64,000 bases of DNA. Source: Longimicrobiales bacterium. GTDB taxonomy: Bacteria; Gemmatimonadota; Gemmatimonadetes; Longimicrobiales; Gaopeijiaceae. The stretch covers positions 62,001 to 126,000 of the forward strand of contig JAPKBW010000007.1 of assembly GCA_028823235.1 (NCBI GenBank). The letters are read 5' to 3'. The position numbers and the translations under genes are program-made. Shown here piece after piece: positions 23,781 to 31,739 of this stretch. The notes beneath the pieces were generated by a model that made no database searches, was not told where the DNA came from, and worked only from the letters and a program-made list of their open reading frames with translations. Each line of letters opens with the position of its first letter. Position 1 is the first letter of the stretch.

Positions 23781-25916
23781 TTAGTAGGCAGCCAGGTCCA
23801 ACAGTGCATCGACCACATTGTGAGTCTGCGGAAGAATGACGTTCTCAACCTGCGGTGCATAGGCGACCCAGGTGTCCATGGAGGCGACCCGTTTCACCGG
23901 GCCGTCGAGGTACTCGAAGAGCTCGTCGGCGATGCGCGCCGCGATCTCCGACCCGATGCCCCATGAGAGACTGTCTTCGTGCACCACGACTACTTTGTTC
24001 GTCTTCTTCACCGAGTCGGCGATCCGCTCCATGTCGAACGGCTGCACGGTTCGCAGATCGATGACTTCGGCTTCGATACCGTGCTTTTCGGAAGCGATTT
24101 TGGCGGCATCGAGGCTTCGCTTCACCAAGGCACCACACGTGACCACGGTCACGTCGCTCCCCTCGCGTCGCACCTTCGCTTTCCCGAACGGGATCATGTA
24201 CTCAGGCCCAGGGTCGCGACCCTTGTTGTAGACTTGACGGTACAGATGCTTGTGCTCGAGGAAGAGCACGGGATCCTCGCAGCGAATCGCAGTGCGGAGC
24301 AGGCCGGCTGCGTCCTCTGCGGTCGCCGGCATGCAGACGTGAAGGCCCGGGCAATGGGTGAAGAGCGTCTCCCCGGTCTGGGAGTGATAGATCGCTCCCC
24401 CCTTCAGGTAGCCGCCGTAGGTGACCCTGATGACGGAGGAGGCCGAGAATGCCCCGTTCGACCGGTACCGCATGGTCGCCATCTCGTTGCGGATCTGCAT
24501 CATCGCCGGCCAGATGTAGTCGAAGAACTGAATCTCCACGACTGGCTTCATGCCCCGGATGGCCATTCCGACCGCGCGCCCTGCTATGTTCGCCTCAGCG
24601 AGTGGCGAGTTGTAGACACGAGCTGACCCAAACGCCTGCTGCAGCCCGTGGGTGACCTTGAAGACGCCGCCCTTGCCCTTCACCTCGGCGAGAATCTCCT
24701 CGCGTGAGGCGTCCGCCACGTCCTCACCAAAGACGACCATGCGCGGGTCGCGCTCCATCTCTGTGAGCATGCAGGAGTTCAGCAAGTCGACCATCGTGAG
24801 GAGTTTGTCGTCCGTGTACCGCGGCGAGTCCTCCGTGTCGAAGTCCGACGATGTCGGGTCGACATCCTCGGAGAAGAGGTGTCTCATCGCAGTGGACGGG
24901 TCCGGCTGGGGCGACTCCAGAGCTTCGTCTGCAGCTGCCGCCACTTCCGCCTCGATGGATACCTCGAGGGCATTAAGCGACTCTACGGTCGCGGCCCCGA
25001 TCGAGATCAGGAGCGCACGGGTCAGGGCGAGCGGATCACGACTCTCTTGCTCCTCTATCTCCTCACGGGTGCGGTACGCGCGCTCATCATCTGACATCGA
25101 GTGCGAGTACGGTCGTGTCGTGTGGGCGTGCAACATTGCCGGCCCCTTCCGTGCACGAGCGTAGGCAATCGCCTCGCCAGCGGCCCGGTACGTGTCGACC
25201 ACATCAGTTCCGTCGCATTCCACGATGTGCAGCCCTGGGAAACTCGATGCGAGCCGTGAGATACTGCCACCAGCGGTCTGAACCTCAACTGGCACACTGA
25301 TCGCGTAGCCGTTGTCCTGCACGACGTAAACAACCGGGAGTGCAAGGTTGGTCGCGGTGTTCAGCGATTCCCAGAACTCACCCTCGGACGTCGCGCCGTC
25401 ACCCGTGCACACGATGACGATTTCGTCCTCAGCGAAGATGTCAATCAGATCGCGGAGCCCGGGCACTGACTCGATCTTCGTTCCGGCCTCGGCGCTACCT
25501 ACGGCCTGCAGGAACTGTGTGCCGGTCGGCGATGACGAAGATGGCGTGTTGAACCTGAGATCACCGAAGTGACCCGGCATCTGACGTCCGCCAGATGAAG
25601 GGTCTGCTTCCGCGCCCACGGCCTGCAAGAGATGATCCAGCGGAGTCTGACCAAGCGACAGCATCATCGCGCGGTCCCGATAGTACGGGTAGAACCAGTC
25701 GCTCGTCGGACGACAGTGCTCCGCGACGGCTACACCGACGGCTTCGTGGCCGGCGCTGGAAATCTGGAAGAAGACTTTGTTTTGGCGCTTCAGGCTCATC
25801 TCGCGGTCATCGATACGACGGGACGTGACCATGCAGCGGTAGAAGCTGAGAATCTGCTCGTGCGAGAGGCCGGCGAGGTCTGGCCCCTCAGGGATTTTTC
25901 GTTCTTGCGTTGCCAT
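23781..25916 (-). CDS. Fused alpha-beta E1 component of a 2-oxoacid dehydrogenase complex
   Basis: The protein has 711 residues with both E1 subunits in one chain. The alpha half (1-330) has the thiamine diphosphate motif GDG at 172-174 through N202, and YYRDRAMML and [18 protein letters not shown]. The beta half (from about 375) has [42 protein letters not shown] and [14 protein letters not shown]. It decarboxylates pyruvate or branched 2-oxoacids and passes the acyl group to the E2 lipoyl domain. The residues after GDG suggest the branched-chain/acetoin-type branch, but substrate choice is inference. E2 and E3 genes are not in the window. It lies 91 bases behind the DUF255 gene on the same strand. 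Confidence 0.93.
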
Positions 25917-26007: not shown

Positions 26008-28086
26008 CTATCTCGTGGAGAACTGTGCATCCTCGACGAGCATCCTCAACTCCCGGGCGAGTGCCGACGCTTCGTTGACTGGGAGTCGGCACGCGTAGTT
26101 GCTGCACACCCAGGCGGTCGGCTTTCCGTTCACTGGTTCGCGATTCTCGAGTAGCGGTGTGCCGGACCCTGATCCACTCCCACGGGTCCCCGCGATGACT
26201 AGGTTCGCGTGCAACGACGAATGAGCGGCTCGGATCAGTCGGTCGGTCGCACCGCCATCGAGGCCATCGTCCTTGAGGCCGACGATTGCGATCTCGGCAG
26301 GTGCGGTGCTCAGGCGCTGTCCGACCACCAGCATTCGACCGAAGGCGGGCCCGAACTGTTTCATGGCATCGGCTTCGCGATCCACGATTCTCTGTGAGAT
26401 GTCGAGCCACGCCGAACGGCCCAAGATCTGTCCGGTGCGGGCCAGAAGTTCAGCAGCGAGCGACGGACCTGACGGCGTCACGTTGTCCATTGGGTCTCGC
26501 GGGCGAAGGATCAGAGCCTCGGCATCGGCCGCAGTGTCAAAGACCGTTCCGGATTTTTCGTCCCAGAATCTCGTGACCACTTCGTTTGCCAGCCACACTG
26601 CTGCGTCCAGCCACTTCGGTTCGAGGGTTGCTGCATGCAGGCTGAGGAGTGCGTTGCCCAGAGAGGCATGATCGTCCAGGAACGCCAGACCTTTCGCCTC
26701 GCCGGCCATCGAGCTGTGGAGCAAGCGGTCGTTGGGCCTCAGGTGCGACCACACGTGTTCGGCTGCACGACTGGCCACGTCCACGTAGTCGGCACGGTCC
26801 AGTGCGGCTCCGGCCTCCGCAAATGCTCGGATCGCGAGTCCGTTCCAGGAGGCAATGATCTTCTCGTCCCGGAACGGCGCTTCGCGCTTCTGACGGGCCG
26901 CGAACAACTTCGCCCGGCATGAAACGATCTTTTCCTCCAGAACGGCCTCCGGCAGGCCGGTCGCTGATGCGAGATCCTCCACGGTCTCGCCGAGATGCGG
27001 AATGTTGCGACCTTCGAAATTGCCGCCCTCTGTGACGCCGTAGATGCGATTGAACAGGCCGGCGTCGGGGCCGAGAATCGAGTCGATTTGGGCGAGGGTC
27101 CACACGTAGAATGTGCCCTCTTCTCCCTCCGAGTCCGCGTCGCGCGCCGAATAGAATCCGCCGGTCGAGTCGGTGAGGTCTCTCGAGACGTAGTCGAGTG
27201 TATCGAGCACGACTTCGCGCAGGTCGTCCGAGTCTGTAAGGCGCCAGGCGTCCAGGTAGGCCCGAGCGAGCAGAGCGTTGTCATACAGCATCTTCTCGAA
27301 ATGGGGCACCAGCCACCGACTATCCACGGAATAGCGGTGAAACCCTCCACCTATATGGTCTCGTATACCTCCGGCGGCCATGCGGCGCAGCGTGTGCACT
27401 GCCATTTCGAGCGCTCGGGGTTCACCAGAGCGAACGTGGTGCACCATCAGGAACTCGAGCGTCACCGGTTGGGGAAACTTCGGAGCTCTGCCGAAGCCCC
27501 CGTACGTCGCGTCATACCGGTTCGCGAGCACCCGCCAGGCTTCCTGAAATACTTCCGATCCGACCTTGCTTTCCGACGCACCTGTTGCCGTCTTGCGAAG
27601 CGCGTCCATAAGCTTCTCTGCTCCACGCCGCACGTCCTCGCGCCGATTAGTCCACGTGTCCGCGATTGACTCCAGAATTTGCGGCAGGGAGGGCATGCCC
27701 GGCTGCGGCTCCGGCGGGTAGTAGGTGCCTCCAAAGAACGGGATGCCTTCCGGCGTGAGAAAAACGGTCATGGGCCATCCACCGCGACCCGTCATCGCCT
27801 GTACGGCCTTCATGTAGATCTGGTCGATATCTGGTCGCTCTTCCCGATCGACCTTGATGTTCACGTAGAGCTTGTTCATTAGTGCCGCGATCGCTGGATC
27901 CTCGAACGATTCTCGCTCCATGACATGACACCAGTGGCAGGAGGAGTAGCCGACGGACAGCAGGATCGGCCGGTCCTCGGAGACAGCTCGTTCGAGCGCT
28001 TCCGGGCCCCAGGGATACCAGTCAACTGGGTTGTCGGCATGCTGCTGCAGATACGGGCTGGACTCTTGCGCGAGTCGATTGGACAT
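26008..28086 (-). CDS. DUF255/YyaL-type thioredoxin-fold and glycosidase-fold protein
   Basis: The protein has 692 residues from the ATG at 28086; a longer frame upstream reads as Pro/Glu/Arg-rich nonsense. The thioredoxin-like N-terminal domain has [19 protein letters not shown] and a CHWC redox motif at 50-53 ([10 protein letters not shown]), then [13 protein letters not shown] and [13 protein letters not shown]. Residues 200-680 form an (alpha/alpha)6-barrel-like region ([33 protein letters not shown]). This is the spermatogenesis-associated protein 20/YyaL family, conserved but without an established reaction. No signal peptide is evident. A divergent gene starts 81 bases away. Confidence 0.92.
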
Positions 28087-28166
28087 GGGTATTTCCAACC
28101 CTGATTCGTTACCTTTCTGGCGACCTTCTTCGGGGGAGCGTACTCCCACGGGGGGCGTTCGATCCG

Positions 28167-28439
28167 ATGGAGAATGAGCCGCTGTACCTTCGAATTGCTG
28201 GACTCGCCGTGCGGCGCCCGCGAATGATCCCGTACTTGCTTCGGGCTGCCTGGGCCTTCCGGGCTCGGGACTGGTATCGCCGGCCTCCGTTTGTGCCTCT
28301 GCCTCCGCTTTCCTATATGCGCTGGCGGCTCGATACAGCATACGGCAACCCTGACGCAGAGCCTACGATCGACGAGATGGAACGTTATCTCGTCTGGTCC
28401 GCGCGGATGCGGACGCAGATGAAGAGTCCGCAGGTATGA
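28167..28439 (+). CDS. Small conserved-looking protein of unknown function
   Basis: The frame gives 90 residues rich in Arg, Pro, Trp and Tyr ([43 protein letters not shown]) and ends with an acidic helix ([20 protein letters not shown]). There is no signal peptide or clear transmembrane helix; basic amphipathic helices suggest membrane or nucleic-acid contact. The stop overlaps the next start by four bases (ATGA), which supports it being a real gene at the head of the 28.2-30.6 kb run. I do not recognise the family. Confidence 0.7.
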
Positions 28440-28810
28440 CTCGACTGCTCCTGCTTGTCATTTTCGTCATTGTGACCTGCGCCTACTTCACGAAAACGCG
28501 CGCGATTCTGCTCAATGCAGCCAAGCCGATCGTGACGCCGATCCTGAAGTGGAATACAGGTGAGGAGATGAACCAGGTAGCGCGCAACGTCTTGGAGCAC
28601 GGGCGTCTGTACGGACAATTGCCGAGCGGAGAGGCTTGGCTTGGCTGGCTCGATTCGAGGTATCCGACGACTGATATGCGACTCGATCCCTGGGGGTCGG
28701 CCTATCAGCTCGAGGTGCTTCCCGACTCCGTCGCCATCATCTCTCTGGGGCCGGATCGCGTACGGCTCACAGACGACGACTTCCGCGTGATAGTCTCTCG
28801 GGGATCATGA
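28436..28810 (+). CDS. Membrane-anchored protein with a type II secretion G-like (pseudopilin) C-terminal motif
   Basis: The protein has 124 residues. An N-terminal hydrophobic helix (LLLLVIFVIVTCAYF) anchors a periplasmic domain. The last 45 residues follow the GspG pattern: DPWGSAYQLEV, then a strand, SLGPDRVRLTDDDFRV, in which acidic residues bind calcium in major pseudopilins. The N-terminus lacks the prepilin peptidase site (basic leader, Gly, then Phe and Glu at +5), so it would not be processed as a pilin. It overlaps both neighbours by ATGA. Confidence 0.75.
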   Translation: MTRLLLLVIFVIVTCAYFTKTRAILLNAAKPIVTPILKWNTGEEMNQVARNVLEHGRLYGQLPSGEAWLGWLDSRYPTTDMRLDPWGSAYQLEVLPDSVAIISLGPDRVRLTDDDFRVIVSRGS

Positions 28811-29346
28811 ATCGGTCTCGCGTGCTCCTGATCGTTCTGGCTTGGTTGGTCACGATCGTGCTCGTGTCCTCTACGCTTGGTCGCGAGATCTACGCGGGAC
28901 GAAGCCCCGGCCTCGGTTCGTTCGCCCTCGTGAATTTCGCTGGATACCTCTTTTTTCTCGTGATGCCGATCGAGGCGCTGGTCCCGATCTATGAAGCCGA
29001 AGGGCATGCCGCAGGGACCCTGATCATGCTCGCGGTCATCTCGGGTCTCGCTGGTCAGGTGATCGACTATGCAATCGGTCGGGTGCTGAGTGACCGCGCC
29101 CTCGGGTACATCGGAGAAAAGCGTTTCGAGCGGTTCAACACGAAGATCGAGAAGTGGGGTGGCTGGGCCATCCTGCTGTTCAACTTCCTACCCCTGTCCT
29201 CGCCGACCATGCTCCTCGTGGCGGGCATGACCCGATACAACGCGCTTCGCGCGTTTGCGTTCAGCTCCCTGGGGCTGACCGGGAAGTATGTGATGATCAT
29301 CTACATTTTCGATCTGACCGCGTGGTGGGCGTCCAGGACCCCGTGA
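28807..29346 (+). CDS. DedA/VTT-like membrane protein
   Basis: The protein has 179 residues with four or five hydrophobic segments. It resembles the VTT/SNARE-associated domain of the DedA superfamily: AGQVIDYAIGRVLSDRALGYIGEKRFERFNTKIEKWGGWAILLFNFLPLSSPTM, where G-x-xxxD-YxxGR and the later F-xP motif are characteristic. Members are implicated in lipid-carrier flipping and envelope homeostasis. It is shorter than the average DedA protein. Its ATG overlaps the previous stop and its stop overlaps the GTG of the CoaE-PHP gene. Confidence 0.8.
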   Translation: MNRSRVLLIVLAWLVTIVLVSSTLGREIYAGRSPGLGSFALVNFAGYLFFLVMPIEALVPIYEAEGHAAGTLIMLAVISGLAGQVIDYAIGRVLSDRALGYIGEKRFERFNTKIEKWGGWAILLFNFLPLSSPTMLLVAGMTRYNALRAFAFSSLGLTGKYVMIIYIFDLTAWWASRTP

Positions 29347-30626
29347 GCGAACTGATTTCCGTAGCGCTCACCGGAAATGTCGCCTCCGGAAAATCGACGG
29401 TAGCTGATCGATGGGCGGCATTGGGCGTGCCCGTGATCAGTGCCGATGAGCTCTCGCGTCAGGCCGTGCTGCCGGGTACGCCAGGCCTCGACGAGATCCG
29501 GGCAGTGTTCGGCGAGGGGATTCTTGCTGCGGATGGGACGCTGGACCGTGGTCGACTTCGGTCAGTCATCTTCGAGGACCATGGTCAGCGAAAGAAGTTG
29601 GAGGAGATCCTTCACCCGAAGATCTGGGCATTGCGCTCTCACTGGCTCGAAGAGCAGCGAGCAACTGGCGTCAAGTTGGTGGTTTCGGAGATTCCGCTTT
29701 TGTTCGAATCCGGTCGGAAGGCCGACTTCGATCACGTGGTGGTTGTCGATGCCCCGGGAGAGGTCAGGCTCGAGCGCATGGTGGAGACACGTGGACTCGA
29801 TGTGGTCGAGGCGAAGCGTATCATCGCATCGCAGATGGACGCGGACCTCAAGCGATCAGCCGCGGACTATGTAATCGACAACGTTGGTGACCGAGCGGCC
29901 CTCGATGCAGAAGCGGATCGAATTTTGGGTCTTCTTTGTGGATCAGAGACGACTCGCTCCAGCATGCGGATCGACATGCATCTCCACACGGAGGGGTCGT
30001 GGGACTGTCTTTCCGACGCGGAAAGAATCCTAGAGCGATTGCTGGAGTTGGGCTACGACCGATTCGCGATCACCGATCACAACAAGGTGCACGTCGCGCT
30101 GCGGATGGCCGAGAAGTACCCAGACCGAATCATCCCGGGTGAGGAAGTGAAGACCGGTGAGGGCATCGACGTCATCGGCCTTTATCTTACCGAGGAGATT
30201 CCTAAGGGCACGCCGGCCGAAGAGACGATTCGACGTATCCGGGAACAGGGCGGGATTCCGTATCTGCCGCATCCGTACGCGGGAAGAAAGGGCGGCGGCG
30301 GAAAGTACGCCGATATGCTCGGACCGCTCTGCGATGTCATCGAGGTATTCAACGCCCGCCTGCACTCGGTCCAAGAGAACCATCGAGCGCAGCTTCTCGC
30401 ACAGACGTACGGGAAGCTCCGGGGCGCGGGGTCGGACGCTCACACCATCGGAGAGCTGGGTAACGCCTTTGTCGATCTCCCGTTTCATGCCAATCGCCCC
30501 GACGCGCTGTTGGCGGCTCTTGGGTCGGCCTCGATGGGCGGAACTGAGGCGTCGCGGCTCGTACACCTTGGCTCAACGTGGGCGAGGGTAAGGAAGAATC
30601 TCCCGGGCGGTCGCTCGACCGAGTAG
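29343..30626 (+). CDS. coaE: Dephospho-CoA kinase fused to a PHP-domain phosphoesterase
   Basis: The protein has 427 residues from a GTG that overlaps the DedA-like stop (GTGA). Residues 1-200 are CoaE: VALTGNVASGKSTVAD (P-loop), VISADELSRQAV, LHPKIWALRSHWLEEQ, VSEIPLLFESG and VVVVDAP, the enzyme that phosphorylates dephospho-CoA in the last step of CoA synthesis. Residue 208 begins a PHP domain: IDMHLHTEGSWD with HxH at 213-215, FAITDHNKV, PGEEVKTGEG, LPHPYAG and GAGSDAHT, a full set of metal ligands for a phosphoesterase. The frame is continuous with no stop between the domains. An internal ATG at 29964 could also start the PHP part, but it has no good ribosome site. Confidence 0.9.
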   Translation: MSELISVALTGNVASGKSTVADRWAALGVPVISADELSRQAVLPGTPGLDEIRAVFGEGILAADGTLDRGRLRSVIFEDHGQRKKLEEILHPKIWALRSHWLEEQRATGVKLVVSEIPLLFESGRKADFDHVVVVDAPGEVRLERMVETRGLDVVEAKRIIASQMDADLKRSAADYVIDNVGDRAALDAEADRILGLLCGSETTRSSMRIDMHLHTEGSWDCLSDAERILERLLELGYDRFAITDHNKVHVALRMAEKYPDRIIPGEEVKTGEGIDVIGLYLTEEIPKGTPAEETIRRIREQGGIPYLPHPYAGRKGGGGKYADMLGPLCDVIEVFNARLHSVQENHRAQLLAQTYGKLRGAGSDAHTIGELGNAFVDLPFHANRPDALLAALGSASMGGTEASRLVHLGSTWARVRKNLPGGRSTE

Positions 30627-30710: not shown

Positions 30711-31739
30711 TTGAGCTACCGGACGCCTGCGCATCGAGCGGCAGCGGTCAACGAAGTCCGGAACGCGCTTCTCGCGTCTCGGCGTGCGGTTCTGACCACC
30801 CATCTCAACGCCGACGGCGATGGGGCGGGTTCACAGGCTGCTCTCGCATCGTGGCTTCGCGCCAATGGTACCGAGGCGTTCATCGTCAATCCGACCGCCT
30901 TCCCGAATTCGTTCAAGTTCATGCTCGAGAGCGAGGACTGCATTGTCCCTGCCGGATCTGGACGCGCGAGAGATATATGCGACACCGCGGACCTGGCAGT
31001 TATTCTCGACACTGGTGAGGTCCCGCGCATCGGACGTGTCGCCGAGATGATCCGGAAGCTGCCGACGGTCGTGATCGATCATCACCCGATTGGAGATCAC
31101 GCAATCGGTGGAATCTCACTTCGAGACTCCACGGCGTGCGCCACGGGCGAATTGGTATTCGACCTCATTCACACGTCGAACGGTCCGTGGAGTGATGCGA
31201 TCACCCACGGCGTCTATGTCGCGATACTCACGGATACCGGCGGCTTTCGATTCGACAACGCGACCCCGGGCTGCCACAAAGTGATCGCAGAGGTCGTGGA
31301 ACGGGGTGTTAATCCCGAGAAAATGCACGAACGCATTTACGGTTCCTCGCCGATGAGGAAGTGGCAGGTCTTACAGCATGCGCTCGTCACGCTTGAGCAT
31401 GAGGAAGAGACCGGGATCTCCTGGATGATCATCCCGAAGGAACCGTTTGAAGAACTAGGCGCTACGGCTGAAGATCTCGAGGGCATCGTCGATATCCCGC
31501 GCTCGATTAGCGGAACGGAAGTGGGTGTGCTTTTTCGACTGACCAAGTCCGGTGAGGTGAAGATGTCGTTCCGCTCGAATGGGCTGGTCGACGTGAACAC
31601 CCTGGCTCGACTCTTCAATGGTGGTGGACATGTGAAGGCGTCCGGTGCCATCACGCCGGGGCCTATGGATGCTGCGATCGACCGGGTGCTGACCGCCACT
31701 CGAAAGGCCGTTAAGAAGAGTCGGACGGTTGGAGCATGA
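30711..31739 (+). CDS. nrnA: NrnA-like DHH/DHHA1 phosphoesterase
   Basis: The protein has 342 residues from a TTG with AGGA upstream. It has the DHH-subfamily motifs: LTTHLNADGDGAGSQAAL (NADGDAxGS metal site), AVILDTGEVPRIG, VVIDHHPIGD (DHH), YVAILTDTGGFRFDNAT and the DHHA1 end MSFRSNGLVDVNTLARLFNGGGHVKASG. NrnA proteins degrade nanoRNAs of two to five nucleotides and dephosphorylate pAp. Cytoplasmic. It follows the CoaE-PHP gene after 84 bases, a gap containing a weak 6-base-pair hairpin (30660-30677) without a T-run. Confidence 0.92.
   Translation: MSYRTPAHRAAAVNEVRNALLASRRAVLTTHLNADGDGAGSQAALASWLRANGTEAFIVNPTAFPNSFKFMLESEDCIVPAGSGRARDICDTADLAVILDTGEVPRIGRVAEMIRKLPTVVIDHHPIGDHAIGGISLRDSTACATGELVFDLIHTSNGPWSDAITHGVYVAILTDTGGFRFDNATPGCHKVIAEVVERGVNPEKMHERIYGSSPMRKWQVLQHALVTLEHEEETGISWMIIPKEPFEELGATAEDLEGIVDIPRSISGTEVGVLFRLTKSGEVKMSFRSNGLVDVNTLARLFNGGGHVKASGAITPGPMDAAIDRVLTATRKAVKKSRTVGA

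Follow-up and report, generated by a model that had tools for sequence, protein, structure and literature searches.

The window analyzed in this work (the whole stretch of 64,000 nucleotides) embeds a run of four overlapping genes, the last of which joins in one frame a dephospho-CoA kinase (CoaE) and a PHP-domain phosphoesterase (Table 1). The first three genes overlap each other by ATGA and the third one runs into coaE by GTGA at positions 29343-29346, so that the coordinates bear out the four-gene run of ATGA/GTGA overlaps reported in the first-pass annotation. The DedA-like nature of one of the neighbors also stands, its VTT domain scoring above the cut-off, whereas the pseudopilin-like character ascribed to another one lies below the threshold (T2SSG, 16.5 bits vs. 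a cut-off of 21). Downstream, 84 bases after the fusion gene, a DHH gene starts, for which NrnA is the best NCBIfam model (103.4 bits, below the cut-off of 350); it is followed by a 158-aa ORF, a gene for a Fur-family regulator, and a 330-aa ORF.

Table 1. Features of the locus harboring the coaE-PHP fusion gene (positions are those of the window).
Feature	Position	Strand	Basis and remarks
90-aa ORF, no family, first of the overlapping run	28167..28439	+	Kept upstream of coaE in most f1/f2 relatives, 43-81% identity
Short protein, weak T2SSG resemblance	28436..28810	+	16.5 bits, below cut-off; upstream of coaE in most f1/f2 relatives
DedA-like (VTT domain) gene	28807..29346	+	PF09335, 36.3 bits (cut-off 33.9)
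coaE-PHP fusion gene	29343..30626	+	427 aa, GTG start, TAG stop; open frame, Pfam domains, 54 fused relatives
Dephospho-CoA kinase domain, residues 6-182	29358..29888	+	PF01121, 171.9 bits; invariant catalytic residues
Linker, residues 201-207	29943..29963	+	Low pLDDT at 202-204
PHP phosphoesterase domain, residues 208-420	29964..30602	+	Pfam, AlphaFold, fold search, metal ligands
PHP_C (PHP-associated) segment, residues 345-394	30375..30524	+	PF13263, 42.5 bits
DHH/DHHA1 phosphoesterase, NrnA-like (oligoribonuclease / PAP phosphatase family)	30711..31739	+	DHH 49.3 bits, DHHA1 42.3 bits

Two other ORFs lie upstream on the opposite strand. The first one (23781-25916, 711 aa) carries E1 alpha (PF00676) joined to the beta parts (PF02779, PF02780) and, judging from these domains, is a fused 2-oxoacid dehydrogenase E1. 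The second one (26008-28341, 777 aa) codes for a DUF255/YyaL-like thioredoxin-domain protein; the start as listed lies beyond the divergent 90-aa ORF, and the true one is probably later.

CoaE-PHP is a real and conserved two-enzyme protein. The frame has no internal stop across its 427 codons, and the motifs that can be read in its product are the P-loop GNVASGKST, SADELS, and LFESG on the CoaE side, and HLH (residues 213-215), TDHN, GEE, HPYAG, and SDAHT in the PHP half. The previous suggestion of an unbroken in-frame fusion, embedding a complete CoaE and a complete PHP metal site, is therefore confirmed: all the quoted motifs are present, the ligands are invariant, and the relatives are fused likewise. 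The same two-domain protein was retrieved from related genomes at 54 distinct loci, in which the joint near codon 207 is conserved, including 13 of the 13 genomes of the genus that possess the locus. It might be argued that a base missed near positions 29930-29970 joined two genes during the assembly, the genome being a draft in 90 contigs and the genes of the split relatives lying in different frames, with overlaps of 4 or 8 bases. However, the frame is open through the joint in all 13 genus members and in the 54 independent loci, and no stop near the joint was found in any of the fused loci examined; the first-pass annotation had envisaged that all the relatives might keep two genes and that a base or a stop might be missing at 29930-29970, but the relatives are fused and the joint is intact. 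Since the fusion is kept across many independent genomes, an assembly frameshift can be ruled out and the probability that we assign to an artefact is negligible. Of the single stops listed for some matches, those within the aligned part (L006, L007, and L021) are located at the C-terminal end, at query position 422.

The N-terminal half is likely the only dephospho-CoA kinase of the cell and, from its family, its invariant catalytic residues, and its being present in a sole copy, it is expected to phosphorylate dephospho-CoA at the 3' position. Indeed, residues 6-182 match PF01121 far above the cut-off of 27 bits, the score against TIGR00152 (dephospho-CoA kinase) is 146 bits (cut-off 65.55), and no second CoaE is present in the genome (3.14 Mb, 97% complete). 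Each of 53 fused proteins has T10, G11, G16, K17, D35, R142, and R145 without exception; by eye and from the motif context, K17, D35, and R142 or R145 correspond to Lys14, Asp32, and Arg140 of the Mycobacterium tuberculosis CoaE, which matter for ATP binding and catalysis (PMC3019153). The accompanying statement that CoaE is normally a stand-alone enzyme was too strong, because in M. tuberculosis this kinase is extended at its C-terminus by a UPF0157/GrpB domain (PMC2765170).

Concerning the C-terminal half, structure prediction and conservation are the basis on which its fold and metal site were assigned. PF13263 (PHP_C), the only such domain in the genome, is matched well above its cut-off of 21.3 bits, and PF02811 (PHP) matches residues 211-258 with 25.6 bits, slightly below the cut-off of 26.4. 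Despite this sub-cut-off score, the AlphaFold model and the fold search settle the PHP fold: the PHP part modeled alone (221 aa) reached a pLDDT of 96.3 and a pTM of 0.92, and the distorted (beta/alpha)7 barrel of the PHP superfamily was recovered with a Foldseek E-value of 2e-11 and Z up to 18.9. The nine metal ligands H213, H215, D221, H246, E268, D276, H310, D365, and H367, which make up a trinuclear set, are all invariant in the 53 fused proteins and, with the exception of one gap at H213/H215, in 80 PHP sequences, fused and split. From these data we infer that the C-terminal half represents a PHP phosphohydrolase that is intact and metal-dependent, its activity being predicted from the modeled fold and the conserved ligands.

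Among solved structures, the PHP part comes closest to TM0559 (Z 18.9), PsfC, BVU_3505, BAD_1165, RNase AM, and CV1693 (Z 17.0). The top matches TM0559 (PDB 2ANU), PsfC (7RTY), and BVU_3505 (3E38), with Z of 18.2-18.9, differ from the protein described here in having no CoaE fusion, and the entries of TM0559 and BVU_3505 are titled merely as predicted phosphoesterases (2ANU, 3E38). The nucleotide 3',5'-bisphosphatase CV1693 (2YB1) and RNase AM (7UG9, 9ETK) have in common with it the PHP fold (Z 17) and most ligands, but both enzymes possess an insertion domain, helping to hold the 5'-phosphate, that is absent from the PHP half; in particular, residues 106-177 of RNase AM, inserted between the two PHP halves, have no counterpart in the 221-aa model. 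RNase AM binds its metals through His13, Asp20, His45, Glu72, His83, His198, Asp255, and His257 (PMC9410882); His83 is replaced by Asp276 in the PHP half, and at the position aligned with Arg201 no equivalent residue is present. The curated models for the CV1693-type 3',5'-nucleoside bisphosphate phosphatase (NF041577) and for RNase AM / RNase RNM (NF047791) gave 29.1 bits vs. a cut-off of 400 and 21.8 bits vs. 375, respectively; with these scores and without the insertion domain, an assignment to either type was rejected. The CehA/McbA metallohydrolase type was likewise ruled out by its curated score (NF038032, 46.7 bits vs. a cut-off of 80, relatives reaching 73.8).

The full-length AlphaFold model (pLDDT 92.8) breaks at residues 202-204 and its pTM is 0.57 despite the two well-folded domains, which implies that no fixed interface or orientation is predicted. 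The spacing between N180 and D211 varies from 28 to 66 residues among the fused relatives, 29 being the commonest value. The two domains are held on a loose linker and probably work side by side, rather than forming one channelled active site. The absence of a predicted interface and the variable linker are also what would be expected if the PHP half, as the first-pass annotation allowed, were only tethered, i.e., if it were active on a substrate unrelated to CoA (e.g., a sugar phosphate or an RNA end) and the fusion were a neutral accident of operon structure. As for its expression, in 18 of the 54 fused loci the position at which a stand-alone PHP gene begins carries a codon other than ATG, GTG, TTG, or CTG (e.g., TGG, GCC, CTC, or ATC), and in 11 fused loci neither ATG nor GTG nor TTG occurs within the 20 codons leading to that point. 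With no usable start codon, the PHP part in these loci should be made only as a fusion.

The 54 fused loci, all verified by translation, belong to four families of the class (48 in f1, 2 in f2, 3 in f7, and 1 in f9). Within the family, 57 of the 121 genomes give one match spanning both domains; the matches of two genomes (G100 and G031) are broken or cut short, and G100 was confirmed to be fused, with a long linker. At the genus level, the locus is present in 13 of the 14 genomes and fused in every one of the 13, the fourteenth being 63% complete. A further 37 loci harbor coaE and the PHP gene as adjacent split genes which, with a simple choice of the start codon, overlap by four bases in 19 cases and by eight in 11 (30 of 37 together). 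A scan for relatives, which detects close ones only, returned ten, all of them Gemmatimonadota, which places the genome studied here in this phylum, and a plasmid search gave no fused relative, only CoaE-type matches being present among the matches listed. Second PHP copies, with 37-41% identity to the PHP part described here, are located on other contigs of f2/f3 genomes that also have a coaE-linked copy (G035:C2:182459-183115, G055:C53:13631-14278, G052:C139:21020-21634, and G046:C283:7324-7890).

The fused loci do not form one clade, so that fusion and/or fission must have been recurrent. Indeed, in a quick tree of both domains, in which gains are indistinguishable from losses, at least nine fused/split changes are required by parsimony and at least four of them are forced by well-supported branches. 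A tree placing all the fused loci together was rejected by the AU test (p-AU 0.00026) and, under this quick-tree model, a single origin of the fusion without later splitting is excluded. The fusion appears to be an easy event, since one small indel in an overlap of 4 or 8 bases joins the two genes, and this one-indel distance weakens the functional argument that can be drawn from the fusion itself. The same ease of joining speaks in favor of a mere tether, as do the persistence of the split pairs and the lineage deprived of the PHP part: in five loci of three genera (g41, g22, and g42), the NrnA-like gene comes after coaE without an intervening PHP gene, and a profile search of these genomes for the latter gave only weak matches, which cover the first third of the domain and lie within longer PHP proteins. 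Moreover, PHP_C proteins are present in archaeal control genomes with no match to the bacterial CoaE model, which indicates that the wider PHP_C family is not bound to CoaE. However, the coaE-PHP pair remains adjacent in the f3 genomes while the other neighbors differ, and the fusion is recurrent and fixed in whole genera, whereas a neutral accident would be expected to be more scattered. On the whole, a tether to an unrelated activity appears to us quite possible, though less likely than not.

A different role that requires no catalysis, as proposed for the UPF0157 domain of M. tuberculosis, would be that of a helper for the folding or stability of CoaE, the activity of the PHP half being incidental. 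The M. tuberculosis CoaE does require its C-terminal domain for soluble expression (PMC2765170). Nevertheless, fused and split proteins alike keep every PHP metal ligand unchanged, the CoaE of the split relatives stops short of the PHP part, and the PHP gene is missing from one lineage, all of which makes us regard this explanation as improbable.

The surroundings of the fusion are themselves conserved. The gene order is kept in most f1 and f2 relatives, where the NrnA-like DHH gene is the conserved downstream neighbor. Only some of the relatives show the DedA-like (VTT) gene next to coaE, whereas they keep the flanking genes; this gene is variable or else evolves fast. In f7 and f9, a DHH/DHHA1 gene of another subfamily, whose product shares 25-28% identity with the NrnA-like protein of the window, is located directly upstream of coaE (e.g., L060:2811-4004, L057:418-1503, and L085:3309-4382); its overlap with coaE amounts to 4-11 bases in L060 and in L085, and in L057 a gap of 22 bases separates the two genes. 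Several f7/f9 loci have an NrnA-like gene also further downstream.

That the PHP half removes a phosphate from an intermediate of the CoA pathway, as the first-pass annotation proposed, is plausible, and the recurrent fusion, the tight linkage, and the invariant metal ligands support it. The interpretation that we favor, with a rough probability of 0.42 and by analogy with known systems, is that the PHP half clears 3'-phosphorylated adenine nucleotides around CoaE or, alternatively, erroneous CoA-like products; we prefer it to a tethered enzyme with an unrelated substrate. According to this idea, the CoaE half would make CoA by adding the 3'-phosphate to dephospho-CoA, and the PHP half would perform the housekeeping of this step by hydrolysing unwanted 3'-phosphorylated adenine nucleotides. 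A candidate substrate is 3',5'-ADP (pAp), which is set free as CoA is consumed and could in addition arise from AMP through a promiscuous CoaE, the PHP half then removing it; the E. coli CoaE reportedly phosphorylates AMP and adenosine phosphosulfate weakly. Among the by-products of CoA metabolism is pAp, and the enzymes known to hydrolyse it are CysQ, NrnA and other DHH enzymes, and CV1693, itself a PHP enzyme (PMC8268124). We favor clearance because of the fused or overlapping pattern of the two genes, the YqeK and DUF89 precedents discussed below, the pAp chemistry in the vicinity of CoaE, and the DHH neighbors. As to pAp itself, both CV1693 and RNase AM are among the closest characterized PHP folds, and the gene is flanked by DHH phosphoesterases, which form the other superfamily hydrolysing pAp. 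On the other hand, the missing 5'-phosphate-holding insertion, the low NF041577 score (29.1 of 400 bits), Asp276 in the place of His83, the presence of a pAp-type phosphatase already next door, the three genera without a PHP gene, and the archaeal PHP_C proteins without a bacterial CoaE match argue against this interpretation.

One might also imagine that the two halves oppose each other, the PHP half stripping the 3'-phosphate that CoaE adds, so that one protein would set the CoA/dephospho-CoA balance in the manner of bifunctional kinase/phosphatases. A kinase and a phosphatase do share one chain, with both sites invariant, and the structural relatives include a 3'-phosphatase acting on nucleotide 3',5'-bisphosphates (CV1693). 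Yet such a futile cycle would need regulation, and neither a regulatory domain nor a fixed interface was seen; in addition, coaE is kept in relatives without the PHP gene. We therefore consider this scheme unlikely. Similarly, we give little credence to the idea that the PHP half might hydrolyse the 3'-phosphate of CoA (or free dephospho-CoA from dephospho-CoA-capped RNA), thereby exchanging dephospho-CoA with the CoaE half; if true, this would be the first single protein both adding and removing the final phosphate of coenzyme A.

The occurrence, throughout a bacterial order and even outside it, of a phosphatase fused or translationally coupled to CoaE points towards an unassigned reaction accompanying the final step of CoA synthesis. 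The repeated joining of the two enzymes in Gemmatimonadota suggests that a previously unrecognized step, serving for clean-up or control, closes this pathway, and the locus provides a first biological context for a PHP_C subfamily without an assigned substrate; being small, CoaE-PHP is suited to a direct test of such a reaction. In the literature searched, we found no description of the CoaE-PHP architecture: the terms 'dephospho-CoA kinase' and 'PHP domain' never occurred together and PF13263 was not named in any paper.

The comparison with known systems starts from the M. tuberculosis CoaE-UPF0157 protein (GrpB; NF002879/PRK03333; Rv1631), which likewise has CoaE at the N-terminus and, behind it, an additional domain of about 210 residues; there, the latter is GrpB-like, whereas here it is a PHP domain. 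In agreement with this, the CoaE-GrpB model (NF002879/PRK03333) gave 179.6 bits, below its cut-off of 215, with a match ending at residue 236. Fusions between a cofactor enzyme and a hydrolase have repeatedly exposed metabolite repair steps, as in the case of YqeK and DUF89. DUF89 phosphatases can be fused to pantothenate kinase, i.e., at a pathway step different from that of CoaE. This system resembles CoaE-PHP in joining a CoA-pathway enzyme to a metal-dependent phosphatase with a damage-control role (PMC4921024 Table 4), and differs from it in the phosphatase fold. NadD and YqeK are fused in mycoplasmas and split but clustered in other Gram-positives, and YqeK was shown by assay to proofread NadD products (PMC9426524). 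The likeness consists in a cofactor enzyme and a phosphohydrolase that are fused in some relatives and clustered in others, as observed here for 54 fused and 37 adjacent split loci; the difference lies in the pathway (NAD), in the HD-domain hydrolase, and in the assays, CoaE-PHP being known from sequences and models. Thus, both the fusion of a cofactor enzyme with a hydrolase and that of CoaE with an extra domain were already known, and the CoaE-PHP combination is new within the literature searched.
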